DNA from: a virus
Virus record (IMG/VR): IMGVR_UViG_3300035681_000141
Coordinates: 1-21,915 of that record
DNA length: 21,915 nt
Strand: one strand, 5' to 3'
This document shows positions 4,036 through 21,915 of the stretch, piece after piece (position 1 is the stretch's first letter; the number at the start of each line of letters is the position of its first letter). The notes beneath the pieces are model-generated. The model did not search any database. It worked only from the letters and a program-made list of their open reading frames with translations, and was not told the DNA's origin. The position numbers were made by a program, and so were the translations under genes.

Positions 4036-4436
4036 TATTGGCCTCCTTGCGTACGAGTCCAGGTCAACACCTGAACGGTTTGATTTGTTGCTAAGTTCAC
4101 ATTGTCTAACTCTAAGTCGCCGGCTCCACCACTCTGGTAGACCGATCCCTGCTCCTGCACCACACCATCACTGCTTTTTAGGCGATAGTAACCACAGGTT
4201 CCAGAGGCTAGGGCAGTACCAGTCCAAGTTCCCTGTAGGGCCACACCCCCATTGACGGGGGCAGTCAGCCAGTCGGTTGGCAGGGTGATATCTAACAGTT
4301 TGGTTCCGGTGTCTGGTAGGGTTGTTTGGGCCGGTTCAGTTCCTGTAAAGACCTGTAGTAGTGGTGCGGTACCCAAATAGGCCTCATAGGAAGCTATCAT
4401 TGCATTTCGCAAAGCTGTGCTCAGTTTGACTGTCAT
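4035..4436 (-). CDS. Small phage structural protein (first of a paralogous pair)
   Basis: This 133-residue protein starts with KLSTALRNAMIASYEAYLG, then APLLQVFTGTEP, TLPTDWLTAP and a WTGTALASGTCGYYRLKSS strand, ending in LDNVNLATNQTVQVLTW. This is a widespread small phage structural family. It overlaps the gene before by ATGA and the gene after by TAATG, and its own end carries AAGGAGG for the next gene. The next protein has the same layout, so the two look like ancient duplicates. The function is not known beyond a probable virion role. Confidence 0.8.
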   Translation of the reverse strand: MTVKLSTALRNAMIASYEAYLGTAPLLQVFTGTEPAQTTLPDTGTKLLDITLPTDWLTAPVNGGVALQGTWTGTALASGTCGYYRLKSSDGVVQEQGSVYQSGGAGDLELDNVNLATNQTVQVLTWTRTQGGQ

Positions 4437-5017
4437 CGGGTTACCTCTTGATCCAGTGAGACTGATCCGTAGACAAGTGGTACTACGATACCGTCTTTCT
4501 CCAATTCTAGTGAATACACGCCTGTTTTAAACGTATAGGCCGCAGTCGTGGTCGCACTTAGAATGATACTAATAGTCTTTTTGGTGTTGTCTAAAAATAT
4601 CTTGCCGTTTTCTGTTGTCAACGAGTCCAGGGTGGTTGTACTGGTCAACTTTTCACGGATCTGCATGCGAGCAGTGTATCCACTCAAATCAACTGGTTTG
4701 TTGTATTCCAAAATCCCACCACCTGTGTAGGTGGTATAATTCAGGGAATTGATTGAATTGACAACAACAGTGTTGCTTGTGACCTCTGAAGCAATCACAT
4801 ACTCAGTGGTATTTATTTCCTTCATTCCTAAAGCACCGGTTATTTTTGTTCTCCAACCCTCTGGTATGCCGTGGTTTGAGGCAGTGATTACAACAGGCGC
4901 AGCTTTGGATATATTGGTTATAGGACTGTACATCTTTGTAGAGTTCTCCCAACGCAACACCTTGATGTACGTACTTCCTTGATAAATTTTTAGATTGATT
5001 TTTGTTGGAGTTGCCAT
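4433..5017 (-). CDS. Phage structural protein with inserted FCCH-like beta domain
   Basis: This 194-residue protein has outer parts (KINLKIYQGSTYIKVLRW; then LSGYTARMQIREKL, TTENGKIFLD, AAYTFKTGVYSLELE and VSLDQEVTR) that follow a small beta-sandwich family common in phage tail regions. Residues of about 36-105 form an insertion: KAAPVVITASNHGIP, ITGALGMKEINTTEY and a closing TYTGGG. That pattern resembles the FCCH-type beta domain often inserted into phage proteins. It is the first gene after promoter 2, with AAGGAA eight bases before ATG 5017, and it ends in an ATGA overlap with the next gene. A role as fibre attachment or tail decoration is inferred from the family. Confidence 0.78.
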   Translation of the reverse strand: MATPTKINLKIYQGSTYIKVLRWENSTKMYSPITNISKAAPVVITASNHGIPEGWRTKITGALGMKEINTTEYVIASEVTSNTVVVNSINSLNYTTYTGGGILEYNKPVDLSGYTARMQIREKLTSTTTLDSLTTENGKIFLDNTKKTISIILSATTTAAYTFKTGVYSLELEKDGIVVPLVYGSVSLDQEVTR

Positions 5018-5076: not shown

Positions 5077-5105
5077 ATTATACCACATGGGCAGAACTTG
5101 GTCAA
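5077..5105 (-). promoter_or_regulatory. Sigma-70-type promoter 2
   Basis: On the minus strand -35 TTGACC (5100-5105) and -10 TATAAT (5077-5082) are separated by 17 bases, with extended -10 TGGTATAAT. The spacer half TGCCCATGTGG differs from promoter 1 at one base. The start is expected near 5070, giving a leader of about 50 bases with a six-base hairpin (arms AGAGCT at 5039-5044 and AGCTCT at 5056-5061) and an AAGGAA ribosome site at 5026-5031 for the gene at 5017. Confidence 0.9.
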
Positions 5106-5108
5106 GCG

Positions 5109-5143
5109 AAAAAATACCCAGCTTTGTGGGCTGGGTATTTTTT
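5109..5143 (-). terminator. Strong bidirectional-looking intrinsic terminator
   Basis: The arms AAAAAATACCCAGC (5109-5122) and GCTGGGTATTTTTT (5130-5143) pair over 14 bases with a seven-base loop. On the minus strand the stem ends in a run of T. It ends the transcription unit of the giant and zincin-like genes and overlaps the zincin stop codon. Promoter 2 begins four bases further on. Confidence 0.93.
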
Positions 5144-5411
5144 ATGGGGAACCAGACACTCTTCTGGCCTCCTCTTCAAGCGGATTGTTCCAGTAGCCGT
5201 ATTTGAGGTTGTACCACTGGTACAAAACCGTAAACCGGGTGGGACCTAGCTTTTGTATTTGGTCTAGATGTACCTGTTCGTGGGCTAAGAGGTATTGGTC
5301 TGTTTCATGGCCTGGTAAAATGTACACCGTACTCCAAGGTGTTGTGATACTTTTGTAACCACTCAGCTTTAAAAAGGTGTTGAAGAACAAGTTGGTTGTG
5401 ATAATTTTCAT
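5142..5411 (-). CDS. Small zincin-like protein with HEXXH motif
   Basis: The 89-residue product contains HEQVH at 44-48, the zinc-binding motif of metallopeptidases, in the context QYLLAHEQVHLDQIQKLG. The segment NNPLEEEAR at 75-83 offers Glu79, Glu80 or Glu81 as third zinc ligand. A run of aromatic residues (FTVLYQWYNLKYGYW) lies between. The ATG at 5411 is two bases after the stop of the giant gene. No clear ribosome site is present, so coupling to the giant gene is likely. An upstream extension of the frame overlaps that gene and is not supported. Its TAA overlaps the terminator stem. The role is unknown: processing of structural proteins or cell-wall action during entry are possible. Conserved small phage zincins exist, but I cannot place this one further. 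Confidence 0.84.
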   Translation of the reverse strand: MKIITTNLFFNTFLKLSGYKSITTPWSTVYILPGHETDQYLLAHEQVHLDQIQKLGPTRFTVLYQWYNLKYGYWNNPLEEEARRVSGSP

Positions 5412-5413
5412 AG

Positions 5414-8400
5414 TCAAAAAAACATTAATAACATGTTGCTGAATGCAGTGGCTGCAGCAAAAGTCCAACCTAAAGAACCATTGTTCACTGAATTGTTTCC
5501 TGAGTACCAAGTATTGGAGGTTGGAAAAGCCCTTATTCCAGTAATGGTGAGATAATCAGAATTTACAGAACCAACGCCAGTATATACAATTGTTGCAGGG
5601 GAGCTTGCAGATGCTCCTGTAATCGTAAGCAATCGTCCTGGCTCGCCTGAAGCGGTAAAGTTTGCTACTCTTTGAATTGTGTTTCCTAAAGCAATCGTTG
5701 TCGCACCTGTAGTTTTGTAACTATTTGTAATGTTGGCAAAAGTGTTGTTGCCTGTGATAGTTAAGGTACCTGCTCCGGCTTGATTCAGTGTGATGTTTGA
5801 GTATATTAAACTATTTCCATTAAATGTTTTGGCACCGGCTGCGTTTAGTGTAATTGAACCGGTTCCAGATATAGTGGGCGCACCAATGCTTAAACTTGTT
5901 GGACACACTATTGTTCCACCAGACCCAAAATCGAGATTTGTGGAAATACTTGGGCCGCCGGTAGCATTCATAGAAAGAGTTAAAGTATAACCATTTAAAT
6001 TAATAGTTCCGCCACTAAAACCAAGACTATTCAATACAGTATTTTGTACTGTAAGTGCATCATTTAGCGTTAATGTACCGCCTGTGTTATCAACAAAAAT
6101 GCTTTGTCCACTAAATACTTTACCTGCAGAAGTAATATTTTGAGTACCGCTTCGCTTTAAGAATCGGTATACATTAACGGATATTGTAACACCCGAGCCT
6201 AAAATTAAGTCACCGTAAAAAGATAGTATTGATGTACCACCTGAAAATGTCATTGTGTTTGTTGTTCTTGCAGACAAATCTATATTTGGAAGTCTGTATC
6301 CGCCAAAATTACCGCCAAAGCTGATGCTTGCTCCAGAATTCAATCCTGTGGATCCTACTATACAGGTATCTTGTGGTAAAGGATAGTTGTCGGCATTTGG
6401 TGTACCTCCAGGTGTGGTTGCCCAAACTGTGCTTGTCCATCCGCCGCCACCCGTCGCATTCCAATATTTTGTAGTAGAAACAAAGTTTATTCCACTATTT
6501 CCACCACAATCCCCTAAGCGTACACCGCTGGCTGGGGCTGCTGCTCCAATAATTTCAATATCGCTGAAATCCACATTTACAAGAGATGTGGCTGCACAGG
6601 TCAATGTTCTTTTTGTGTATAGAGTATTAGAACCGAATCCCAATCTATATGCGGAAACGTCTACAGCAACGCTGCTAAGTGTTCCATTTATAGTTTGATC
6701 TGCAGAAAAAACTACAGGTTTTGAATTTGGAAAAATAGTAATTAAATTTGCAAATCCTGTGCAATAAAACTCTAAATTATTAAAGGTATTCTGACCATTT
6801 ATTGATACGGATGTTGCAACAGCTGGATTGGTATTATTAAAAGATACATTATAAAATGTTTTATTGTTACCGTTAAATGTGGTAATAGCCGCAGAACAAT
6901 TTATTTGTGACGTACCCGGAATAGTAGTAAGTGATACACTATTTGGTTGCGTTGTGCCAAAATTAATAGGCGTTGAGCCTGACAAGTTCAGTGTACTGGA
7001 CCCAAAGTTAACCGTCCTAATATTTCCGTTATCAGAAGATATAAAACTGTCAGTGACGTTATAAATGCTACAATTAAAAACACCACTAGTTACAACAATG
7101 CCACCAGTATTGGTGAGCGCACTTCCCAGAGTCCATTCAGCTCCAACACCATTAACTGTTATACTGTTTGCCAAAGAATTTCCGTTTGTTGTAAACGTCT
7201 TTCCGGCCGTTGAACCTGATAGTATAAATGACCCAGTATATGTTCGAGTTAATCCTGTTGTAGGTAGCACGGTATTACCATGAGCAATAATCGCTGCAGT
7301 ACCCGCTAATGTAACATTACCTGAAGCTGGCCCAGCAATAGTCAGTGTGTTGCAGCGGCTGGTGGCATCTACAGTTGCCGTGTAGGCAGTGGCATTTGAT
7401 GCGGAATCAAAGATTACAGCATCAAGACTTGTAGGAATTGCCGCCCCAGAAGTTCCACCAGAGGTTGTAGACCACCTAGCAGTGTTGCTCCAGTTACCTG
7501 TACCACCTACCCAATAAAGCGTACGGGGTGACGGTGCAGCTGTTCTGTAGACAGGCGCTCCAGCAGTTCCTGTGCTGTTGGCTCCTGCATAGAACTCACC
7601 TGGAGATGTGGCAGAAAATCCAACTGAACCCATTGCAAGGTAGTCTATACCCGATGTGGCAGATCCGGCCAAAATATTGGTTGTAGCTGTGCCTGTAAGT
7701 GTAACCACATTACCAGCGGTTCCCGTTACAGACCACTTGCCAAATGTTTGAGACCATGTACCAAAATCAATTGTATGGGCAACTGTTTTTGTACTTGCAA
7801 TTTCTTTGAATTGATGGTTGCCAAAAGCAAACCCAAATACACTGGTAGAAGTTGTTCCGCCTATTGTAAGCTTATTAAAAGACCCGTTAGCGTGAGTAAT
7901 CGAACGACTTGCTGTAGTATTATCAGAAAGTAATAAGTCTGCAGTACCTGCGATAAGCCCAACTCCATTAGATCCGACATTCCATACGATACCTGTACCA
8001 GTTAGTGTCCAAAGACCAGAACCCATCATTACCGTGCCGCCGGTTCCTACAAGACGCCAAGTAGTAACATTATAAATGGCCGCATCAAATGTACCTGAAG
8101 TTAAACTTATATCTCTAGATTGTGCAACAACTAGTGCATCCGCTAGTCGTACTACTCCATTAAAAGAGTTAATCGAAATAGTACTCCCAAACGTAACGCC
8201 ATTGCTGGTGATAGTCTGCGTGCCGCGTTTGGCAAAGGTGATAGCATTGGCATTACTGGTTGATGTGACTCCAGTGCCCCACTTCCAGTCACCCAAGACT
8301 GTTGGACTGCCACTTGTGAGTGTCATGGCCGATGTACGAGCTGACATGTCTACGTTGCCAATATTCCAGCCGCCCATCGTAACGGTACCTGCAACTCCAG

Positions 8401-10600
8401 CATTGTCAAAGACAGCAGTGTCTTGGGCCAACGGGAAATTGTTGACGTTAGGAGTTCCGCCAGAACTTGAAGCCCATGCGGTTGCCTCCCAGTTCTGCGT
8501 ACCTGCCAAGTTCCAGTATACTGTTTTAGGAGATGGGAAAGTAATACCCGAGTTGCCTCCCAGATTGCCGGCTCTGGTTGGAGAAGACCCTGCGGCAGGG
8601 CCTGCAATGGTGATGTCTCGAAAGTCGCAGTCGGTTGCAGCTAGAGTACCTACTGTCAATGTACGTGGTGTTCCTATAACATTGGAGTACAAGAGCACTC
8701 GTCCAACTGCACTTCCACCAGCACAGGTCAAGGTTCCAGTAACCGTTTGATTACCGGATAAATAGAATCCTTTGTAGGTTCCTGCAGCAGGTGGAGAAAT
8801 AGTTATATTTGCAAATGTGTTATTGCCAGAAATTCCTGCAGAACCCACCTGAAGATCTAGCGTGCAAGGATAGTTGTTGCCAGCACTTGAAAATAGAGGT
8901 CCAAACGAACTGGACAGCCTAATTGTTCCATTTCCACCTGGGCCAGCAGAAAATGTGCACAAGCCATTTGATGTATCTTGAAATGGTGTAACAGAAGCAG
9001 GACAAATTAGAGTTCCACCATTAAAAATAAAACCCGATGTTGGTGATGCACCTATAACAACAGTCGCTGGAGTTGCAGACCCACTTCCTGTCAAGGTTTG
9101 GCCGTTAAGATCAATTGTTCCGCTGGTTAATGTGAACCCAACACCAAATATATAGCCTATCGAACAACTATCGGCTAATTTTACAGTGCCATCAAAGCTG
9201 TTTACTGTAATTCTTTGCCAACCCTTACCAGCACTGGTTATTGTTTGAGTGCCGCCTCTTTTGGCAAAAACTGTAGCCCATGTATTGGTACTCCAGCCAA
9301 CCCCAGTACCGGAACCGTTAGTCCAATCTCCATAGACTGGAAAGTTGTCAACACCAAAAATAATTGACATTGCATTAGTTCGAGTCGACATATTTACGCT
9401 GCCAACATATGGAATTGCAGCGTCCAGAGTAACAGTAGCAGAAGTATTCAGGCCGGTGTTTTCAATGATTGCTGTATCTTGAATTAAAGGATAATTATCA
9501 GTGTTTGCTGTACCACCAGAAGTAGCAGCCCAATTATTGCCACTCCAATTACCACCTGCAGGAGTTACCCAATATACACTCTTAGGTGCTGAAAAAGTAA
9601 TACCCCTGCAACCACCCAAGTCTCCAATACGAGTTCCGCCAACAGGCGCACCCGTTACGTAGACGTCTCTAAAGTCTGCGTCTGCTAGGCTTGAAGAGGT
9701 GTTTATGTTCAGCGTTTGAGCAATACCGAAGGTATTTCCCCTGAACAAAACTCGGCGATTGCCAGCCGTGCCGGTGGTAGACAGTGCTCCATTAATAGTC
9801 TGTCGAGAGTCAAATGTAACTTGTCGGATACCTGCAGCAGAAGGCCCGGTAATCGATAGATTATTAAACGTATTGAGTCCAGAAATTGTTGAGGTACCGG
9901 CTGTAGTAGAAGTAAATGATACGTTATTGAATGTGTTTGCTCCCGTTATAACGGGACTAGCACCTGAAAAGTTTACATTGTTATATGTTAGACCAAAACC
10001 ATTAAAAGTTGCCCCGCTTAGATTAATGGTTGAAGTGCCTGCATTTAATGCTGTGGCAATATTAATATTCCAGCTATTTGATAAAGTTAGTGTGGATGCG
10101 CCCAGAGTAATTGTGCTTGAAGCGCCGCCGCTAATAATAGAAGTACCAGTTAAATTATAACCGGCAGTATTAAAAGATGATCCAGAATTCAGCGATATTC
10201 CTACGCCGCCACCTAGTGCATCTGCTAATGTATATGATCCAAGTATAGTAAAAGAGCAATTAAAAGGCTTGCCACTCGACAGTATGGTGGCCCCAGAACC
10301 ATATAAATTTAGGGTAAAACCAGCCCCATTAAAAGTCATGCCGGTGCTAAAAACTATGGAGCCATAAATGTTCCAATTTCCACCTAATGTTAATGTTCCA
10401 ATAAAACCTGTACAGGTTATTGTTCTACAAGTTGCGGCTGTTAGCGTACAAGTAACCACACCGGATGCAGAGTCAAAGAACACATCATCTACTGATGTGG
10501 GCACGGAGGCTCCGCCAGTACCACCGGATGTGGTGGCCCACTTAGTTCCTGCAGTTCCGTCCCAGTTTGCAGTACCCCCCACCCAGTATCTATCTGCCAT
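5414..10600 (-). CDS. Giant modular beta-rich surface protein, five tandem modules
   Basis: This 1728-residue protein is built from five modules of about 345 residues. Each begins with YW, a G-rich turn, NW, a W-TSGGT patch and a proline-containing D-x-FD patch, at residues of about 4, 341, 693, 1027 and 1377. Typical starts are RYWVGGTANWDGTAGTKW and TLYWVGGTGNWSNTARW. The long remainder of each module is rich in short repeats of the form FNGVSF / LNLSGSTI / TGNNTFNNI, which suggest a right-handed beta-helix. Several joints carry GDLGG or GNLGG followed by a GITF- and YW-type start. The C-terminus SNMLLMFF is short and hydrophobic. AAGGA precedes ATG 10600. Function is unknown: a large tail-associated adhesin or decoration is the likely role from size, low charge and location. 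No catalytic motif was seen. Confidence 0.9.
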   Translation of the reverse strand: MADRYWVGGTANWDGTAGTKWATTSGGTGGASVPTSVDDVFFDSASGVVTCTLTAATCRTITCTGFIGTLTLGGNWNIYGSIVFSTGMTFNGAGFTLNLYGSGATILSSGKPFNCSFTILGSYTLADALGGGVGISLNSGSSFNTAGYNLTGTSIISGGASSTITLGASTLTLSNSWNINIATALNAGTSTINLSGATFNGFGLTYNNVNFSGASPVITGANTFNNVSFTSTTAGTSTISGLNTFNNLSITGPSAAGIRQVTFDSRQTINGALSTTGTAGNRRVLFRGNTFGIAQTLNINTSSSLADADFRDVYVTGAPVGGTRIGDLGGCRGITFSAPKSVYWVTPAGGNWSGNNWAATSGGTANTDNYPLIQDTAIIENTGLNTSATVTLDAAIPYVGSVNMSTRTNAMSIIFGVDNFPVYGDWTNGSGTGVGWSTNTWATVFAKRGGTQTITSAGKGWQRITVNSFDGTVKLADSCSIGYIFGVGFTLTSGTIDLNGQTLTGSGSATPATVVIGASPTSGFIFNGGTLICPASVTPFQDTSNGLCTFSAGPGGNGTIRLSSSFGPLFSSAGNNYPCTLDLQVGSAGISGNNTFANITISPPAAGTYKGFYLSGNQTVTGTLTCAGGSAVGRVLLYSNVIGTPRTLTVGTLAATDCDFRDITIAGPAAGSSPTRAGNLGGNSGITFPSPKTVYWNLAGTQNWEATAWASSSGGTPNVNNFPLAQDTAVFDNAGVAGTVTMGGWNIGNVDMSARTSAMTLTSGSPTVLGDWKWGTGVTSTSNANAITFAKRGTQTITSNGVTFGSTISINSFNGVVRLADALVVAQSRDISLTSGTFDAAIYNVTTWRLVGTGGTVMMGSGLWTLTGTGIVWNVGSNGVGLIAGTADLLLSDNTTASRSITHANGSFNKLTIGGTTSTSVFGFAFGNHQFKEIASTKTVAHTIDFGTWSQTFGKWSVTGTAGNVVTLTGTATTNILAGSATSGIDYLAMGSVGFSATSPGEFYAGANSTGTAGAPVYRTAAPSPRTLYWVGGTGNWSNTARWSTTSGGTSGAAIPTSLDAVIFDSASNATAYTATVDATSRCNTLTIAGPASGNVTLAGTAAIIAHGNTVLPTTGLTRTYTGSFILSGSTAGKTFTTNGNSLANSITVNGVGAEWTLGSALTNTGGIVVTSGVFNCSIYNVTDSFISSDNGNIRTVNFGSSTLNLSGSTPINFGTTQPNSVSLTTIPGTSQINCSAAITTFNGNNKTFYNVSFNNTNPAVATSVSINGQNTFNNLEFYCTGFANLITIFPNSKPVVFSADQTINGTLSSVAVDVSAYRLGFGSNTLYTKRTLTCAATSLVNVDFSDIEIIGAAAPASGVRLGDCGGNSGINFVSTTKYWNATGGGGWTSTVWATTPGGTPNADNYPLPQDTCIVGSTGLNSGASISFGGNFGGYRLPNIDLSARTTNTMTFSGGTSILSFYGDLILGSGVTISVNVYRFLKRSGTQNITSAGKVFSGQSIFVDNTGGTLTLNDALTVQNTVLNSLGFSGGTINLNGYTLTLSMNATGGPSISTNLDFGSGGTIVCPTSLSIGAPTISGTGSITLNAAGAKTFNGNSLIYSNITLNQAGAGTLTITGNNTFANITNSYKTTGATTIALGNTIQRVANFTASGEPGRLLTITGASASSPATIVYTGVGSVNSDYLTITGIRAFPTSNTWYSGNNSVNNGSLGWTFAAATAFSNMLLMFF
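5414..10600. repeat. Five in-frame module repeats of about 1 kb
   Basis: Module starts (the YW codons) lie near bases 10590, 9575, 8520, 7520 and 6470, a spacing of about 1.0 to 1.05 kb. The copies are clear in protein but diverged in DNA, so the expansion is old. The conserved parts are the module start and the joint before it; the helix-like remainder varies most. Confidence 0.8.
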
Positions 10601-11336: not shown

Positions 11337-11368
11337 AAACAATGGCGGAAATATTTCCGCCATTGTTT
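11337..11368 (-). terminator. Perfect 32-base palindromic terminator
   Basis: The sequence is a perfect inverted repeat centred at 11352/11353, with arms containing CAATGGCGGAAAT. It lies two bases after the stop codon of the gene at 11370. On the minus strand the stem is followed by GTTTTGTATTT, a T-rich tract. The symmetry means it could work in both directions, but no plus-strand gene is present. The next gene starts only 24 bases beyond, with no promoter visible between, so some read-through is expected. Confidence 0.85.
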
Positions 11369-11369
11369 A

Positions 11370-11819
11370 TCAAACTGCTGCCAGTGTAACAGTCCAAGTG
11401 ATTGTCATTGTATCATTTGCTGCTTTGTTGATTACTGCAAATACGGTACGGCACAGCATGGTGCCAGCACTTGCTGCATTGAATAATCCTGCTTCTGTTA
11501 GAGCTGCAGTGCCAAGACCAGTACCAAAACTGGCAACGTACACAATGTTGGTAGTACCAGGAGTTGTACTGGTTAAGGCAACTCGGGCACTTTCTGTAAC
11601 CAGTGCAGTATTACCAGCAGCAGCTGCAGTTGTACCAGTTCCCACAGCCATGTGACTCATAGCTGTTGCACCAGCTGTAGCCATACGACTGGCAATATAG
11701 GTTAGGCCTTCTGTAACCACTAGATTATCGATTTCACGGGTTTCTTTTACAACACCGGTGTCATCAAACACTGTGATGTTTAACTTGCCTGTAATTTTCA
11801 AATTTTCTTGGGAGTTCAT
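11370..11819 (-). CDS. Small phage tail/structural protein
   Basis: This 149-residue protein begins with KITGKLNITVFDDTGVVKET and continues with NLVVTEGLTYIASRM, SHMAVGTGTTAAAAGNTAL, then TEAGLFNAASAGTMLCRTVF and NDTMTITWTVTL. I recognise this sequence of motifs from a widespread family of small phage structural proteins found in tail-fibre regions; its precise role is not known to me. AAAGG precedes ATG 11819. It is the last gene of the promoter 1 cassette: its TGA at 11370 is followed at once by a strong terminator. The repeated Thr/Ala/Gly composition fits a beta-rich surface domain. Confidence 0.8.
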   Translation of the reverse strand: MNSQENLKITGKLNITVFDDTGVVKETREIDNLVVTEGLTYIASRMATAGATAMSHMAVGTGTTAAAAGNTALVTESARVALTSTTPGTTNIVYVASFGTGLGTAALTEAGLFNAASAGTMLCRTVFAVINKAANDTMTITWTVTLAAV

Positions 11820-11833
11820 AAAAACCTTTCTGG

Positions 11834-12715
11834 TTATGAAATTGTCCTGGAAACCCCTACATAGTCTTCAAGAAAGTAGTTGGATCCGTAATTTTGGTTA
11901 CTGATTATTCCGGGGTTTGAGATGTTCAAACTGTCTTCAGATTGTTTGTTAAAGATATTGGTCAAGATCTCGCCCACATTTAGTGGGTCCACAACCACCT
12001 TGCCTAAAGTTATTTCGTTGGACTCGACTAGTTCAAACTGATCACTAGTGACTTTAAAGAAGGTGGCAACTTGATCGTCATCTACGGCTGCACCATTAAC
12101 GTCGTCTGTTACGTTGAAGTCGTCCGCTAGTTGTTTCAAAAACTGTACAGTATAGACGTCGTCGCCAACACCAGCCTGATCCTCAACCACCTTGCCCAAA
12201 CCTATCTCATCAAACTCACCAATACCAGTTTGATCCTCGAGGGCCTTGCCTAAGGTTACCTCGTCATACTCACCTATCTCAAGCTGATCACCTGTGACTT
12301 TAAAAAAGTCAGCGACTTGATCGTCGTCTACAGCCGCTCCATTAACGTCGTCTGTTATGTTGAGGCTGTCTGTAACAAACTTGCCAAAGTTTGACTCGTA
12401 TACGTCTTGCATATCAAGCTGGTCTTCAACCACCTTACCAAAGCCTGTGTCCACTGAGTCAGCTGCTCCAACCTGATCTTCAATATTTTTACCAAACAGG
12501 TTTTGAATGTACTCTAGTGTATTGATACCTTCTTCAACTATTCGTTCATAGGCTGTTGTAAAAAATCCAGTTAAGTACTCACCTGTAGTCTTGGTTGTTT
12601 GAGCAATATCGCTGGCCACAATCTTGGACAGCTGTACACAGCTACCAACTGTTTTTGTAGTGGCCTCTACAAGAACAGTTGTTTTCTTGACAAGTTCAGC
12701 TATCAGGTTAGCCAT
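11834..12715 (-). CDS. Acidic tandem-repeat protein, probable tail fibre or decoration protein
   Basis: This 293-residue protein is of unknown function. Residues 1-72 are non-repetitive and look helical. Residues 73-266 consist of about ten units of roughly 18 residues, mostly of the form FGKVVEDQLDMQDVYESN, rich in Asp and Glu. Two units are lengthened to 28 residues by VNGAAVDDDQVA and are 82 residues apart, so a block of several units was itself duplicated. Residues 267-293 are a non-repetitive, Tyr- and Ser-containing tail. The regularly spaced acidic residues could bind calcium, but this is inference. GGAGG lies six bases before ATG 12715. It belongs to the promoter 1 cassette, between a BppU-like and another small tail protein, so a structural role is likely. 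Confidence 0.85.
   Translation of the reverse strand: MANLIAELVKKTTVLVEATTKTVGSCVQLSKIVASDIAQTTKTTGEYLTGFFTTAYERIVEEGINTLEYIQNLFGKNIEDQVGAADSVDTGFGKVVEDQLDMQDVYESNFGKFVTDSLNITDDVNGAAVDDDQVADFFKVTGDQLEIGEYDEVTLGKALEDQTGIGEFDEIGLGKVVEDQAGVGDDVYTVQFLKQLADDFNVTDDVNGAAVDDDQVATFFKVTSDQFELVESNEITLGKVVVDPLNVGEILTNIFNKQSEDSLNISNPGIISNQNYGSNYFLEDYVGVSRTIS
11912..12499. repeat. In-frame repeats coding for the acidic 18-residue units
   Basis: The segment encodes about ten short units. At DNA level the best-matched pair starts CTTGATCGTC at 12070 and 12316 on the plus strand, 246 bases apart (82 codons). The long units match closely in bases as well as in residues, so the block duplication is fairly recent compared with the single units. 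Confidence 0.82.
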
Positions 12716-13265: not shown

Positions 13266-14700
13266 TTATGTTGGCCAGCGGGCCTCGATCTCGGCCACGC
13301 GGGCGAGGAGGTTTTCGATGAGAGCCTGTTGCTCTTGAATGGCTTTACAAAGAATGGGAACTACTGAGTCGTACTTGACGACAAACCGAGAACCGGCAGG
13401 GCTGACGTTGCCGTCGTCATGCACCAACTCTTGCATTGCGCCATCGGGAATTGCCGACACCAAATGGCCGAAGCCTTTTTTCAACAGGTCTTGCGCGATG
13501 AAGCCAGTGTCTTCAATCCCCGATTCTTTCCACGTGAACTGGACTGCGTCAACTTCGTTCACGAATGCCAAGCCGCTAGGAATTGGCTTGATGTTGCTTT
13601 TCAGGCGGACATCTGAAATGGCGTAGATGTTGGCCCCAGCAATGGAGTCAGTTGCCTGAATGGAGGCGTTGATGGCTTGCGAGCCAAAACCTGTAGCCCA
13701 GGCCGCATTGCCTGACGCGCCGGCAAAAGACGCGCCGGTTGTCCATGAAACTGAACCACTGACGGTCAATCTTGCATTGGCAGTGGTCGTGCCAATCGAC
13801 AAGTTACTAGAGGTGTCAAGGGTCATCCTCGTTGTTGAGCCGGTGACATCTCTGAATTCAAGGTTGCTGTTACCAGAGTTGGCTCCTGCCCCAATCAACC
13901 AGCTTCTGGTGGCGTTGGTTGTGTAATAGCCGCTTCCGGTTGAAGCGTTCGAGCTTCTAACCTGCATGTAGGTTGATCCGCTTCCGGATACGTCCAGTTT
14001 GGACTGAGGGAGGTGCGTTCCAATCCCGAGGTTGCCGGAGTTATCCAGCGTCATGCGTCTGGTAGGAGTAAAACTTCCAGGGGCGGCGCTGGCGTCCGAA
14101 AACCACCTGTGCTCTCCAATCTCTTGTCTGTAATCGGCGGTGAATCCGGCGTTTATTCTGGTGTGGCTAACGCCTGCTGCTGGGTAAAAACTATTGGATG
14201 CCATCCCAATAATTCCTGAACTTGCGTATAGGCTGGCCGAACCAACCTGAACGGCCTTGTATGCGAACCATGCGCTTGGCGTCACCCCCAGGCCGAGGTT
14301 GCCGGATGAGTCGAGGCGCATCCCTTGCGTTGCGCCCGCGATGTTCCAGATGTGCGAGTTGGCGGAATACACCGCGTTGGCAAAATGCCCCACCACGGAG
14401 TCCGTAGCCTTGAGCGCATCAACCGTTTGGTTCTCTCCACTGGTGCCGGCTCTTGCAACAAAAGCCGCATATCCGTTGGTTACGGAGTCAATGCGACCTG
14501 CCGCCGTAGTTGCCGACCCAACCGTAACACCGCCAGCGGAATCGAAGCGCAAACGCTCTGTACCGTTGGTGCTTAACGCCACCGTATTTGCCTCTGGCAA
14601 GTACATCCCGTTACCCGTGGCCGCGCCACCCGTGGGTATCAGCTTGGTGGCCGTTGCCGTGCCTGTGGTGGCGAAGTTAGTGCCGTCAAAAGTTGCAGCA
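13266..14700. other. GC-rich segment in the fibre gene (probable recombined distal half)
   Basis: Hand counts of 60-base blocks give 62% GC at 13261-13320, 72% at 14281-14340, 62% at 14581-14640 and 58% at 14641-14700. The value then drops to 50% at 14701-14760, 38% at 14761-14820 and 42% at 14821-14880. The drop coincides with the codons for the GGTG linker. The high-GC block covers the shaft and S74 chaperone and ends near the stop codon. Confidence 0.75.
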
Positions 14701-15212
14701 CTGCTTGTAGCCAAAGCAGACGTTGAAGATGCGTACACAAGCCCGTTGGCAGTAAAGGATGTAAGCCCTGTACCACCTTTATTGACTGGTAATGTATTCA
14801 ATAAGCTTTCTGCAAACGAAACCCTTATACCTGCCTGATCTGTGTTGCCTAGATATCCTCTTAGGTTCCACAAATTGTTTGTACTGTCCCAAACTGTTTT
14901 GACTTGATGAGGAGTACCACTCAAGTCTGCTTGCAGACCTGTGGCGGTAGCACTGTTGCCTCCAATACTCATTCCAGGTAGGTTTACCACTTCTTCATCA
15001 GCTGTATTGGCGTCGTTGCGACGATACAGTCTCAAGGAGCGACCACCACTCACAGCAGTGGTGGCCGCACTCATTAATCCAGCCATTTTATTGGTGGTAC
15101 TGGTCCAATTGCTCCAAGTGGCCGCACGACTTATATGGCCACGAATGGTGTCCAATACGTCTGGTTCTGTGTCAGTTGTGACCGGTTTGTTTAAATTGTT
15201 TAAATCTGCCAT
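13266..15212 (-). CDS. Tail fibre with C-terminal S74 intramolecular chaperone
   Basis: This is a 648-residue fibre. The N-terminal 145 residues probably attach it to the tail. A PVNKGGTGLTSFTANGLVYA linker follows, a common joint in mosaic phage fibres. The middle has repeated patches such as RMTLDNSGNLGIGT and RLRFDSAGGVTVGS, typical of beta-structured trimeric shafts. The last 116 residues are a peptidase S74 (endosialidase-type) chaperone: SDVRLKSNIKPI, TGFIAQDL and a C-terminal helix with LIENLLARVAEIE. Family knowledge places self-cleavage between Ser533 and Asp534 after trimer folding. The segment encoding residues after about 160 is much more GC-rich than the N-terminal part, suggesting acquisition by recombination. 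A GGAG ribosome site precedes ATG 15212. The gene ends just before promoter 1. Confidence 0.92.
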   Translation of the reverse strand: MADLNNLNKPVTTDTEPDVLDTIRGHISRAATWSNWTSTTNKMAGLMSAATTAVSGGRSLRLYRRNDANTADEEVVNLPGMSIGGNSATATGLQADLSGTPHQVKTVWDSTNNLWNLRGYLGNTDQAGIRVSFAESLLNTLPVNKGGTGLTSFTANGLVYASSTSALATSSAATFDGTNFATTGTATATKLIPTGGAATGNGMYLPEANTVALSTNGTERLRFDSAGGVTVGSATTAAGRIDSVTNGYAAFVARAGTSGENQTVDALKATDSVVGHFANAVYSANSHIWNIAGATQGMRLDSSGNLGLGVTPSAWFAYKAVQVGSASLYASSGIIGMASNSFYPAAGVSHTRINAGFTADYRQEIGEHRWFSDASAAPGSFTPTRRMTLDNSGNLGIGTHLPQSKLDVSGSGSTYMQVRSSNASTGSGYYTTNATRSWLIGAGANSGNSNLEFRDVTGSTTRMTLDTSSNLSIGTTTANARLTVSGSVSWTTGASFAGASGNAAWATGFGSQAINASIQATDSIAGANIYAISDVRLKSNIKPIPSGLAFVNEVDAVQFTWKESGIEDTGFIAQDLLKKGFGHLVSAIPDGAMQELVHDDGNVSPAGSRFVVKYDSVVPILCKAIQEQQALIENLLARVAEIEARWPT

Positions 15213-15217
15213 CGGTT

Positions 15218-18200
15218 TTATACTCCGCTAATTGAAAGGCTCACAGTACCGCTGGTTCTGTTGTTGCTGATATCCCAGGCTTGCACATACACTTTTGCAG
15301 GCAGGGTATTGTCGTCTACTATACAGTTTAACCTTGCAATATTGCTAGAACTCAAGGGTGTTGCCTGTACTGTTTGTACGTCTAAGAAGTCTTTTGTGGT
15401 TGTGTAAAGAGTCCCATCAGTATCTCCTGCATTTAATGCTAGAGTAGCTGTTTCACTTACTTCACTGATCTCTATTCTTACATATAGATCATCTAATTCT
15501 ACAAAACCCTTACCGTCGCTGGCCACAGAGTATTCCACTTCCAAGTACCGAAAATTAGCTATACTTACTTCTGTACCTGTTAACCAAGCTTGCCAGCTTG
15601 CTGTGGCTCCTACACTACCTCTTATTCTGATAGTAGGTGTAGCTCCTGCTACAGTTGTAAGTATTGTAGGAGTTACTTTTACCACTGCTGTCTGTAATAC
15701 TTTACCAACGTCATGATATTCTACATGTTTACCACTGGTTGGCACGGGCTGTGCTACAATCGGGAATCCCGCAGCTATTTTTTGAGCAGCAGTAGTCCAG
15801 CCGTTGTTTGTCAAACGCTGCTCCCAAGTACGTCCAGTAAAACTGGGCAACAGTATTTGTCCAGTACTGCCGCCAACTATGGTAGCATTTACTAATTCAA
15901 TACTTTGCCAATCGTGATAGTACTCTGTTGCCAATACAAAATTGTTTGGCATTTTTATGTCTACAGTGATTTGGCGAGGAGCACTCAAGTTACCTGCTAC
16001 GTCTTCTGCCACTATGTAGATTACTTTTGATCCGCTGCTACGAAAGAAAATAATGTCAGAACGCGAGTCTGCACCTGCAGATCCGTACAGTGTGGAATTT
16101 GCAAACGTTGTACCACTGTCTCCATAGTATATTGCGTACTTTCTTATAGGTTGGCTAGTTTTTGCATCCTGCCAACGTAGGGTAACTGCATTTACCTGTA
16201 CCTCTACTGCAGTCATAACAGGCTCTAATGGGTTTAGTACCTGTAGGGTTGCTTGAGACACAGCACCAATGTTACCAGCCACGTCCACATAGCGTGCATA
16301 AAGTGTGTAACTACCTGCAGTCTTCCAACCAAAATTTGCTGTTTCAGACTTTTTGGCGTCTATTATACCACCAAAGTTTGAGCTCCAAGACAGCTCTAGA
16401 CGGTCCAGTGATTGTTGATTGAACGCAAGTACTGGTGCTTTCCAAGTTGCCTCTATATTGGAGTTTCCAAATATTAGCTGCATTGAAGCAGGAGAACTTG
16501 GTGCCAGTATTCCTAGTGTAGTACTAACAGGTGTACTGGTCAACCCAAAACTATCGTGATGAACTGCCCACAGTTTTAATATTCCTGCAGACTGCCATGG
16601 TAATAGGTGACTTGTAGCGGCCTTACTAACTATTAAAGCGGAAGCTTCCCAAGTACTTCCACTTCTCAATTCCGTTTCGCTGTAATCACTGTCGGGCGAT
16701 TCGTCCCACTGTGCGCGTATTCCATTAGTACTGGTGGTTACATTAAAATTGCTGACAGGATTAGGAACAGTAGTTCGTCCAACTACCTTGTATCCGTACC
16801 ACTCTGTCCACCTACCGATTCTGCCGCCTTTGGTTTCATAGCGCAGTCGGAATCGGTATTCTTGATTTTCTTGTACCCCTGTTATATCTATGCTTTTTAT
16901 GGTAATATCTGAACTGTACAACTTTCCGCCGCTTGTATCCAAGTTACCGATAGACGACACTTCTGCTCTCACATAGGCCACGTCATTGTTTAGATTGGGT
17001 GGGTCGCGATAGGGTATTCTAATAAGGTAAGAATACACTCCTGGACTTAATCGCTTTATAACTCTTTCGTCACTGATTATTTCAGAGTATAACACTTTTG
17101 GAACAGAGTCGCCTACCTGGTTGGCCAATTCCAGTGGTGGTTGGTATATCTGTGATTGAAACACAGCATCGGCTGTAAGGTTTTGATAGTCTGTAAATAT
17201 GTTGTAGGTGCCTGTCTCCCCGGAGTCAACCAGGGTAACTACGGCATTTTTATTTGTGGTAGGCTCTATCTTTATTACCATCAAGTCCTGAGACTCTTTG
17301 TTTAAGACCCCGTACAATACTAAATCATTAGTATCAATTTGACTACTTGTAAACGTTGTTGTGGTTTTTACTCTTTTGTAAAAATCTGCCACCAATCCGC
17401 AAGTACCTGTAGCTGTTGTAGTAGCCACTGTTGCACCACTTTGATTGTATCGGAATCCGATGGGTAGGCCGCCAACATCATAAACTATTTCTGTTAAGTT
17501 TGTTATTGTTCCTGAAAATGTGGCTATGTTTGTTGTTAGGGTTAAACTGTCACCAACACTAAACGGATGGGTTTCAGTGAGTGTGATTGTTACTACACCA
17601 TTCAACCTTCTTACATTGGCTACTCCGAAAGAGGTTGCAATATTTCTTACAATACTGTTATCCGCGCTAGTGTTAGTACTATTACGACTAGTATTACGAA
17701 CTCGGATGGCCATTGTATTGGCTGGATCGTATAGTACTTCTTCGTCTAGTTCTAACAAGTTGTTGGCCAATACATTCTTTACTCTGCCACTGCCACTGCC
17801 CCACTGAGGAACATCGTGCGTGACTTTTACTCTGTCGCCTCGGTTGCACACCAAGTACTCCAAGTCTACGTTGATTGTATAAACCTCTGGACGCAGTTTT
17901 ATTTGTGCTAAATGCCACTTTGCATGGTCCACCGCTTCTGCAATGCTGGTAACGCCTGGCAGTTGGATACTCTCCAGTAATTGTGCAGTTTGTGGATTTA
18001 CGCCCTCATAGGCTACAATTACTTGTTTTTGCTTGTAGTCGTCGGACCTATCAAAAAACTCTACTTTTAAGGCCTGTGGCATTTTTGGCAACAGTTTTGT
18101 GCCTTCAAAACCCCAGCTGTTGTGTGGTGAAAAATGTTGAGTGATTTCTGTTTTTGGTTGGTCTATTACTACAGACCATTTGCCGTCTAACAGGGTAGGA

Positions 18201-20479
18201 CTTGCTCTGCCCGCCGCACAAATGTCCCTCAACACTTCTAACACACTTCGTGGACTTCCCGCCAGTATGCTGTTGTACTGTAGGGTTGTGCTATATGATC
18301 CACCATTATAATTTACAGTTCTGATAGTATTGCAATAGTTATGCCAGGCCTGTAGCTGTAGTAGATTTATCTGGCTGTCTGAAACTGGCTGTGCGTTTGC
18401 AGGATGTTGTAATACATACCGAAACAGTGAGGCGGGGTTACTTGTGACTCTCGTCACCCAAGTGCTGGAGGGCTGGTCCCAGTCCAAGCACACTGTTTGT
18501 ACTACTGCATTGATACCATCTACTTGCCCACTGATTTCGTCAGTTGCTTTTAAGGTAAGTGCAGTTTTTGCTAGCTTTGAAAGTGGTGGGTCAACAGCAG
18601 GATTGGTGTTGCTGTAGCTTGTAACTGTTTGCAACACTGCTTGGTGACTATAGCGATAGCTATCATTGGGCTCTGTTTCGTCACCAGTAGTACGACGGAC
18701 TCTAACCTGCAGGTTAGCAGAAGGTGGCCATGACCTGTTGCGTGTAATTGTCCAGGTAAAAGCGTCCGCTATAGGACCTCCGCTAATTATTGTATTGACG
18801 TTCTGTGTTACTGTTTCTTGGTAATATGACATAAAGCCTTCAGAATCCCAGCTTTCTTTAGTTACAACATACGTACCAGTACTGGCCTGGACTTGGCCAC
18901 CAATTGTAAAGTGTCCCCAACCGTTGTCGCTCAACCAACTGGACCAAGTACCACTACTGTCATATCTGTACTGAATTTCGACTCCAACAGGGGCCGCATA
19001 CTCTGTTCCTGCCTTACTGCCTTTAGTAACAACACTCCTCAACCCCTGTGGAAAACTGATGCTAATACTCACTTTGTCTGTGGGCTGCGAAAAACCAGCC
19101 TCTACCCAACCAGTATCACCTGTTGGGCGTGGAACCGGGGTCCAGATATTAGAGCCTACAGGAGGCAGTCCACTGTAACTCAAGGGCAGGTTTGGAAAGG
19201 TTCCCTGTACATCGCTGCCGTAAATGGCATTAAAACTGTTCAATGCACTTGAGCTAGGTTCTGTTTTTCTGTCTAATGTTACCTGTACTAGGTTATCAAA
19301 ATTGCTGGAAGTAAGCGTGTTGTCTTTGTAGACCTGCACTTGACCTATTTTGAGTGTTGTTAGGTCAATGTCTAGTGGTCCATAACCCCAGATCAACAAC
19401 ATGTCTACATAGGTATCGCGACCACTTACACCCGCACTGCTGGTTCCAAATCCGTCGTATGAGGAAATGTTTTGATCACCACTAAAGCGTACATGATTTT
19501 GGGCACCCAGTGGAGGAGTAACCTTCATCTTACCCAACACAACAGGTATAGAACCGTACTGTTGTGGAGAGTTTGTGGCGCCACTGATAAAGAGCTGCTG
19601 ACGACTTTCTGCAGGCGTGGGCCCGTCTGCCGGCGGGCGAATTGGCGCAATGGCGTTGATTAGTGCACTGCCTACCAACATTATGCCTGCTGTTACTGCA
19701 CCTTTAAGAACAGCCAATCCTGTAACAGAGGTTACACCCAAGCTGGTTGCCAGGGCTCCGCTTGCTGTTGTTAGGCTACCAGCAAGCGGCCCTGCAAAAG
19801 CTGCCAGTGCTATAAATGCAAAAAGTCTAAAAGTGTCTCCGTCTCGAGGAACTGCTCTGTACTCTACAGTATCGCCTACCTGTATTGTTGTAGTAGTCCA
19901 ACGTTCTTTATCTACAACACCTCCATTGATTAAAAACACACAATCTTTTATTAAACTGCTGTTGGGGGTATACTTGTCTTGTAGTAATTGGTTCAACTGT
20001 TGTAGAGTTGTACCTACTTCTATGTTTAATTTTACTTTTTGTGTTTTTAGTGGGTGTGGTGTTGCAACAAGATCAGTTAATTCCTTGAAGCCCAAGTTAT
20101 ACTTGTAGTAACCAGAAATTCGCTTATTCCAGTGTACACTGTCTAAGCTCTCTATAGCAGAGTTAGTGCCTGGTCTGATGTGTAAAAATTTGTTGTCTCC
20201 AATGTACACGCCTACGTGTGTATCATGTCCCATTATTCTGAACAATACAACACAACCCACTTCTGGAACCTCTAACCCTGTCCATTGCTCCTTGTGGACA
20301 GCAATGACTTCACTGGTACGGTGTATGTCTTTGACTGTGTTGTAAGAGTGATAAAAACTGGGCAACTCTATGTTGTAGTGGTCACTGTAGACTAGGCGCA
20401 CCAATCCCCAGCAGTCTAGTCCACTACTGTCACGGCCACGGTCTACATACGGAATGTCTATGTATTTGTTATACCACAT
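15218..20479 (-). CDS. Tail tip fusion protein: NlpC/P60 peptidase + I-like segment + J-like tip/host specificity protein
   Basis: This 1753-residue protein combines what lambda encodes as K, I and J. Residues 1 to about 130 form an NlpC/P60 papain-like fold, with Cys23 in LDCWG, His88 in HVGVYIG and His100 in FLHI as the expected catalytic triad. Such domains cut peptidoglycan or act in tail assembly. Residues of about 140-275 resemble gpI, ending in a long hydrophobic run rich in Ala, Gly and Leu. From about 285 the J-type tip begins, with the typical YGSIPVVLGKMKVTPPLGA. Around 945-1025 an inserted small beta domain is visible, and about 1245-1510 contain three fibronectin-III-like segments. 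The last 230 residues are a beta-rich domain, probably exposed and receptor facing. It starts with a TGATG overlap on the DUF1833 gene, and the fibre gene begins five bases after its stop. No frameshift or stop separates the parts. Confidence 0.9.
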   Translation of the reverse strand: MWYNKYIDIPYVDRGRDSSGLDCWGLVRLVYSDHYNIELPSFYHSYNTVKDIHRTSEVIAVHKEQWTGLEVPEVGCVVLFRIMGHDTHVGVYIGDNKFLHIRPGTNSAIESLDSVHWNKRISGYYKYNLGFKELTDLVATPHPLKTQKVKLNIEVGTTLQQLNQLLQDKYTPNSSLIKDCVFLINGGVVDKERWTTTTIQVGDTVEYRAVPRDGDTFRLFAFIALAAFAGPLAGSLTTASGALATSLGVTSVTGLAVLKGAVTAGIMLVGSALINAIAPIRPPADGPTPAESRQQLFISGATNSPQQYGSIPVVLGKMKVTPPLGAQNHVRFSGDQNISSYDGFGTSSAGVSGRDTYVDMLLIWGYGPLDIDLTTLKIGQVQVYKDNTLTSSNFDNLVQVTLDRKTEPSSSALNSFNAIYGSDVQGTFPNLPLSYSGLPPVGSNIWTPVPRPTGDTGWVEAGFSQPTDKVSISISFPQGLRSVVTKGSKAGTEYAAPVGVEIQYRYDSSGTWSSWLSDNGWGHFTIGGQVQASTGTYVVTKESWDSEGFMSYYQETVTQNVNTIISGGPIADAFTWTITRNRSWPPSANLQVRVRRTTGDETEPNDSYRYSHQAVLQTVTSYSNTNPAVDPPLSKLAKTALTLKATDEISGQVDGINAVVQTVCLDWDQPSSTWVTRVTSNPASLFRYVLQHPANAQPVSDSQINLLQLQAWHNYCNTIRTVNYNGGSYSTTLQYNSILAGSPRSVLEVLRDICAAGRASPTLLDGKWSVVIDQPKTEITQHFSPHNSWGFEGTKLLPKMPQALKVEFFDRSDDYKQKQVIVAYEGVNPQTAQLLESIQLPGVTSIAEAVDHAKWHLAQIKLRPEVYTINVDLEYLVCNRGDRVKVTHDVPQWGSGSGRVKNVLANNLLELDEEVLYDPANTMAIRVRNTSRNSTNTSADNSIVRNIATSFGVANVRRLNGVVTITLTETHPFSVGDSLTLTTNIATFSGTITNLTEIVYDVGGLPIGFRYNQSGATVATTTATGTCGLVADFYKRVKTTTTFTSSQIDTNDLVLYGVLNKESQDLMVIKIEPTTNKNAVVTLVDSGETGTYNIFTDYQNLTADAVFQSQIYQPPLELANQVGDSVPKVLYSEIISDERVIKRLSPGVYSYLIRIPYRDPPNLNNDVAYVRAEVSSIGNLDTSGGKLYSSDITIKSIDITGVQENQEYRFRLRYETKGGRIGRWTEWYGYKVVGRTTVPNPVSNFNVTTSTNGIRAQWDESPDSDYSETELRSGSTWEASALIVSKAATSHLLPWQSAGILKLWAVHHDSFGLTSTPVSTTLGILAPSSPASMQLIFGNSNIEATWKAPVLAFNQQSLDRLELSWSSNFGGIIDAKKSETANFGWKTAGSYTLYARYVDVAGNIGAVSQATLQVLNPLEPVMTAVEVQVNAVTLRWQDAKTSQPIRKYAIYYGDSGTTFANSTLYGSAGADSRSDIIFFRSSGSKVIYIVAEDVAGNLSAPRQITVDIKMPNNFVLATEYYHDWQSIELVNATIVGGSTGQILLPSFTGRTWEQRLTNNGWTTAAQKIAAGFPIVAQPVPTSGKHVEYHDVGKVLQTAVVKVTPTILTTVAGATPTIRIRGSVGATASWQAWLTGTEVSIANFRYLEVEYSVASDGKGFVELDDLYVRIEISEVSETATLALNAGDTDGTLYTTTKDFLDVQTVQATPLSSSNIARLNCIVDDNTLPAKVYVQAWDISNNRTSGTVSLSISGV

Positions 20480-21395: not shown

Positions 21396-21915
21396 TTATC
21401 TCCTTATTAAACTTGGTGTTAAACCATAGGTGCTCTTCAGGGTGTTTTGAGCAGGGCTGCCTGTTCGGGCAAATTCTCCTGCTGCGGCTTCTCCTACGAT
21501 TACTTCTACTCGGCGATTTCCTCGACTGTCTGTGGTTTCACGAGCTGTGGCCTTTTCCTGGCTATAGTTGTTGACAACTACTTCTACGGACCCACCGCCC
21601 CCTCCGCGTACGCCTAGGTTGCCCTGTGAATCCCGTTTGAGCGGCATGATCGCCTCAGGGCCGGCTTCACCCATCATACCGGTGCCCTTGGCGAACTTGA
21701 ATAGAGTAGGACTGTCAACAATAGAGTTGGTGAAGGTTCCGCCTTTGGCATACTTAGTGATTTCACTTGTATGCGGTACTTGTGTAGCAGTGAACACACC
21801 TCCATTGGCGTACTTAGTGATTTCACTTGTAGGTGTTACTTGTGTAGCAATGGGGTTGGTGAATACACCTCCATTGGCGTACTTAGTGATTTCACTTGTA
21901 GGTGTTACTTGTGTA
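21396..21915 (-). CDS. Tail tape measure protein, C-terminal part (gene open at right edge)
   Basis: About 172 residues are in the window and the frame stays open to the right edge, so this is only the C-terminal end. The stretch GMMGEAGPEAIMPLKR followed by GNLGV is the classic closing motif of lambda-gpH-type tape measure proteins, which set tail length and occupy the tail lumen. Before it come repeats of the type SEITKYANGGVFTN, ending in variants such as KYAKGGTFTN and KFAKGTG. A GTG at 21797 lies inside the repeats and has the coding frame continuing upstream of it, so it is not the true start. The gene ends in RR-stop, and its last bases carry the AAGGAG ribosome site of the next gene. 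Position directly before an M-like gene fits the lambda order. The identification is firm; the length is unknown. Confidence 0.93.
   Translation of the reverse strand, partial: TQVTPTSEITKYANGGVFTNPIATQVTPTSEITKYANGGVFTATQVPHTSEITKYAKGGTFTNSIVDSPTLFKFAKGTGMMGEAGPEAIMPLKRDSQGNLGVRGGGGGSVEVVVNNYSQEKATARETTDSRGNRRVEVIVGEAAAGEFARTGSPAQNTLKSTYGLTPSLIRR
21738..21915. repeat. Tandem repeat in the tape measure gene
   Basis: A 50-base segment at 21797-21846 recurs without change at 21866-21915, giving a period of 69 bases (23 codons). A third, diverged copy lies at about 21738-21786, offset by 60 bases (20 codons). All offsets are multiples of three, so the reading frame is kept and copy number changes would alter tape length by 20 to 23 residues. 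The array runs off the right edge, so the total number of copies is unknown. Confidence 0.92.

Follow-up and report, generated by a model that had tools for sequence, protein, structure and literature searches.

A predicted minimal zincin encoded by a widespread phage gene

A short gene behind that of a giant modular protein in a phage genome encodes 89 residues with an HEXXH motif, and raises the question of whether such a compact protein is a zincin-like peptidase and whether it serves its giant neighbor. The window, by which we mean the whole stretch of DNA that was analyzed, is a 21.9-kb virus record in which tail genes are present. The gene lies on the minus strand (product MKIITTNLFFNTFLKLSGYKSITTPWSTVYILPGHETDQYLLAHEQVHLDQIQKLGPTRFTVLYQWYNLKYGYWNNPLEEEARRVSGSP; Table 1), whereas the plus strand of the same interval is interrupted by stops. 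The first-pass annotation had described a protein of 89 residues with HEQVH and a distal EEE cluster, and we find both in the minus-strand translation, at residues 44-48 and 79-81. The two-base gap it reported between the genes is likewise there, as the letters "ct" between the TGA of the giant ORF and the ATG of the zincin gene. We saw no Shine-Dalgarno-like stretch or obvious ribosome-binding site upstream of this ATG, which is compatible with coupling to translation of the giant gene without proving it; judged from the sequence, such translational coupling is plausible. Its stop codon is followed by a hairpin and, further on, by what resembles a promoter of the next gene, so the zincin gene looks like the last of its unit, which appears to be the transcription unit of the giant protein.

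Table 1. Coordinates of the zincin gene, its motifs and its surroundings in the window
Feature	Coordinates	Strand	Basis or remark
Zincin-like protein gene	5142..5411	minus	89 aa; ATG at 5411, stop ends at 5142; translation, PHROG_37302 match, 68-sequence alignment, AlphaFold2
HEQVH, residues 44-48: predicted zinc ligands His44 and His48, predicted general base Glu45	5268..5282	minus	Invariant in intact relatives; in helix 39-55
NPLEEEARR, residues 76-84: third-ligand candidate Glu79 (5175-5177); Glu81 (5169-5171) less conserved	5160..5186	minus	Alignment
Giant ORF, 1728 aa, five YW modules	10600..5414	minus	Neighbor in the same apparent unit as the zincin gene, not an obligate partner
Intrinsic-terminator-like hairpin and T run directly 3' of the zincin stop	5109..5143	minus	Sequence; consensus scan (stem 5131-5116)
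Sigma-70-like promoter match for the next gene (4433-5017)	5077..5105	minus	TTGACC-17-TATAAT, 11/12; consensus match only

The zincin gene is genuine, under selection and widespread among phages. Its product matches the PHROG_37302 profile (E 1.3e-14, with residues 15-85 aligned to positions 25-95 of the 98-position profile), as do 67 of 68 relatives, and has no family above cut-off in Pfam, NCBIfam or PDB sequence searches. To prevent circularity, relatives were sought without HEXXH as a criterion. The C-terminal motif GYxNxPYExEA retrieved 100 distinct ORFs; in 95 of them HE..H lies upstream, mostly at a distance of 28 residues, and the remaining five are contig-edge (truncated) or frameshifted pieces. 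With the N-terminal motif ITMPW...Y we obtained 58 family ORFs with HE..H..Q, and PxExEA was present in all of them. A profile search yielded 159 distinct domains, 155 with HEXXH and four broken or cut exceptions, and chromosomal relatives found by the C-terminal motif alone (from Chitinophagaceae, Rheinheimera, Brachyspira, Gemmatimonadota and others) had HEXXH in 31 of 31 cases. The first-pass annotation had named homologs that lack these residues as counter-evidence; we found no intact one, and conservation in relatives identified independently of the motif rules out HEXXH as a chance occurrence. Across 41 pairs of relatives, dN/dS has a median of 0.15. H44, E45, H48, Q51, Y73, E79 and A82 are invariant in a combined alignment of 99 viral and bacterial relatives, whose viral rows were prefiltered for HEXXH; the C-terminal motif itself includes Glu79, and the conservation of each residue is to be taken from the set not selected on that residue.

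Full-length relatives also occur in bacterial genomes, namely in Malikia granosa (43% identity), Chitinophagaceae and Rheinheimera; the copies in the latter two, on long contigs, may be cellular genes. In a Cytophagales genome bin (L301:3902-8192), a 1430-aa open frame that by reading looks RHS-like has a related HEXXH...PxE segment at its C terminus.

The AlphaFold2 prediction from 68 diverse sequences is confident (pLDDT 95.4, pTM 0.84) and shows a strand, helix 8-17, two strands, helix 39-55 with the HEXXH motif, helix 57-71 and helix 77-86, which begins at the PxE motif. His44 and His48 share predicted helix 39-55, which speaks against the fold with histidines turned apart that the first-pass annotation had named as counter-evidence, and Glu79 lies early in the last helix. 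This predicted layout agrees with a zincin core, where zinc is bound by the HEXXH helix together with a glutamate further along the chain (PMC5512222). With HEXXH kept in intact relatives and both histidines on one predicted helix, the earlier description as a compact zincin-like protein holds at the level of a predicted fold, and the protein probably binds zinc. The set of candidate ligands first named (His44, His48, Glu79 to Glu81) narrows to the histidines and Glu79: as Glu79 is invariant (99 of 99 relatives) and Glu81 is not (88 of 99), the former is the candidate for the third ligand. Glu45, the glutamate of HEXXH, is invariant although a structural zinc would not need it, which favors a catalytic role over zinc binding alone. 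At 89 residues, the protein is very small for a peptidase and may therefore need a partner. A search of the predicted fold against the PDB gave no significant match to any solved structure; the best structural match was a phage protein in BFVD named "DUF4157 domain-containing" in public tables (E 2e-7, TM 0.78/0.84).

To DUF4157/eCIS_core (PF13699) the sequence connection is distant. The window protein scores 12.4 bits, aligning profile positions 56-76 of 79, against a Pfam cut-off of 22, which rules out membership by the Pfam rule. Chromosomal members of the zincin family from Bacteroidota (Chitinophagaceae) reach 22.1-25.1 bits, at or over the cut-off, and an hhalign comparison with six DUF4157 domains gave a match across the strand and the HEXXH helix (prob 64.7, E 6.2e-5). 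The best reading of these sequence comparisons, we think, is a distant relationship of common origin, in which strand and HEXXH helix are shared. Unlike DUF4157/eCIS_core, the window protein is without the N-terminal part of that domain, and its gene stands alone among phage tail genes, outside an injection-system locus and unfused to an effector.

Among proteins described before, those of PHROG_37302 resemble the window protein most directly, with equal length and the same HEXXH and PxExEA motifs; they include ATN93410 of Pseudoalteromonas phage J2-1, which is 42% identical to it. Zincin-like domains in phages have been described already, within polyvalent proteins (PMC5512222). These too are phage-encoded and place a glutamate on the next conserved helix after the HEXXH helix, but they are domains of very large multidomain proteins, whereas the window zincin is a stand-alone protein. 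The C-terminal metallopeptidase of VgrG2b, a T6SS effector of the MA(E) gluzincins (PMC6899460), combines HEXXH with a downstream glutamate ligand on a later helix, the gluzincin-type arrangement that is predicted for the window protein; it is larger, fused to a spike protein and a periplasmic antibacterial effector, and we found no sequence match between it and the window protein. SprT-like and IrrE/ImmA-like phage proteins show weak structural similarity (Foldseek E above 0.01) and belong to different sequence families.

The genomic settings of the family are varied. Genes upstream of zincin relatives encode tail fibers or spikes, head-tail (portal-like) connectors and others, and some copies sit behind head genes or among small early-type genes. 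In Thermus phage MN1 the copy lies between terminase and portal, and in phage C48C1 before a peroxyredoxin gene. Over 71 non-redundant loci the commonest neighbor clusters were tail-fiber-like (15), portal-like (10) and holin (9), each in part of the family only, and no neighbor from which the function might be read was conserved throughout the family. Of the 50,697 records of isolate phages searched, only about three contained a family member. We read this distribution, as best we can, as that of a mobile accessory gene of many unrelated, mostly uncultured phages.

We consider it moderately probable, from sequence and model, that the gene encodes a minimal, single-domain HEXXH...E zincin peptidase and is an accessory gene expressed from a virion-gene operon. 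Most likely the product would be an active zinc peptidase, in which the zinc ion would be held by His44 and His48 of the HEXXH helix together with Glu79 of the last helix, and Glu45 would activate water. Against this explanation speak the absence of a significant solved-structure match, the very small size of the protein and the behavior of Cgo1, a related DUF4157 cargo protein whose growth inhibition is independent of the metalloprotease motif (PMC8894135). The gene is placed variably, often 3' of virion genes (tail fiber, portal) or near lysis genes; in this window its position in the unit of the giant protein suggests that it would be made late from that unit. We saw no signal-peptide-like cleavage motif in the protein, which points to a cytoplasmic location. 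Its substrate would more likely be found among host proteins, or among phage proteins apart from the giant adhesin: in view of the spread of the gene over unrelated phages and positions, a host or general phage target is likelier than any single neighbor.

A different role, which we regard as unlikely, is that of cargo: the virion would bring the protein to the host, inside the particle or on its surface, as contractile injection systems do with DUF4157 proteins. The distant relationship to DUF4157 gives this idea its appeal, since the contractile system AlgoCIS carries DUF4157 proteins as cargo (PMC8894135) and the domain is found in or beside many eCIS toxins (PMC8213781), and the zincin gene is frequently located among virion genes. 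Yet the window protein falls under the eCIS_core cut-off and has no disordered N-terminal loading signal, and many zincin copies lie away from tail genes. The role of the DUF4157 domain is itself regarded as contested (PMC8213781, PMC11297309).

An action at the end of infection together with the lysis genes, cutting a host envelope or regulatory protein, seems to us similarly unlikely. The holins counted above are of the GTA_holin_3TM type and lie within 3.5 kb of the zincin gene in their nine loci, and a GH108 endolysin and an M15 peptidase are found near others. However, the holin neighbors show no fixed strand and are confined to part of the family, late genes commonly adjoin lysis genes anyway, and in the window itself no lysis gene was recognized and no export signal was seen.

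The recurrent place behind tail-fiber and portal genes, together with the very small size and the chaperone role proposed for DUF4157 (PMC11297309), would also fit a protein of zincin fold without peptidase activity that helps virion proteins assemble or fold. We consider this improbable: catalytic Glu45 is invariant and the neighbors are too diverse for one dedicated client.

This leaves the giant neighbor itself. Its modules are about 345 aa each, with YW at residues 5, 343, 695, 1029 and 1379, and the ORF has no Pfam family above cut-off. One module is predicted to be all-beta (pLDDT 85.8) without a significant match to solved structures; among the structure matches listed, many are beta-helical proteins by reading of their names. 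The first-pass annotation had tied the zincin to this YW-module protein and knew of no earlier description of a phage zincin tied to a beta-helical adhesin. The giant ORF has at least 545 relatives in IMG/VR. Of 80 loci fetched, 46 contained a giant relative with at least 350 nt downstream, and none of these had a zincin family member anywhere in the locus; as a control, a profile built without the window protein recovered that protein at 2e-32. In Limnohabitans phage DC31 the giant is followed by a different gene (264 aa), which by reading looks prohead-protease-like, and the zincin is absent. Conversely, among zincin-bearing loci, weak similarity to the giant was seen in one only (L123). In phage J2-1 the zincin relative is also located behind a giant gene, but one that is non-homologous to that of the window (BLASTP E 0.78). 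Nor is the position directly behind a gene of at least 400 aa significantly enriched for the family (10 of 55, compared with 28 of 244 control ORFs, p 0.18).

The proposed tie thus fails the co-occurrence check, and with it the claim of a new zincin-adhesin pairing, phage zincin-like domains being known in any case. This lack of co-inheritance in the 46 loci speaks against a dedicated maturation protease of the giant. That the zincin nevertheless trims or matures the giant protein encoded just upstream, for which the 2-nt spacing, the shared apparent unit and the likewise placed J2-1 relative might be cited, is most improbable in view of the 46 giant relatives and the DC31 giant without zincin, the zincin loci without a giant save the weak match, and the unrelated J2-1 giant.

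The DC31 record (PQ492658.1; L302, L303) was opened inside the giant gene; the large 5' part of the gene is unannotated, and its 3' part comes at the opposite end of the record.

Several further features of the window are recorded here in their own right, all but the last of them on the minus strand as genes or signals. In a 1753-aa ORF (15218-20479), an NlpC/P60 domain at the N terminus is combined with a Phage-tail_3 (gpJ-like) region; phage lambda keeps NlpC/P60 and gpJ-like functions in separate genes. Next to it, a tail-fiber-like protein (13266-15212) ends in a C-terminal Peptidase_S74 (endosialidase chaperone) domain (E 3.2e-11). A 293-aa protein (11834-12715) for which no Pfam family exceeds the cut-off contains repeats of an FGKVVEDQ-like segment, and a strong terminator-like hairpin of 14 pairs (11337-11368) lies directly 3' of the gene at 11370-11819. 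At the cut edge of the record, positions 21745-21915 form a tandem repeat (69-nt period, 2.7 copies), with TQVTPTSEITKYANGGVFT-like repeats on the minus strand.

Returning to the zincin, what we describe is a known but uncharacterized family and a little-studied accessory gene, not a new adhesin-trimming system. The family has been nearly invisible to laboratory phage work, although many unrelated phages carry it. Being so short, and having a confidently predicted fold, the protein is convenient as a minimal zincin, and through the distant link of the family it may offer a simple phage model for asking what DUF4157 domains do. A more specific proposal, that phages carry in this family a minimal, stand-alone relative of the eCIS DUF4157 zincins that is packaged in or on virions and delivered into the host, strikes us as unlikely. 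The interest of the family would rise if virion carriage were demonstrated; were the proposal true, an isolate such as J2-1 would be a simple system for the function of DUF4157.
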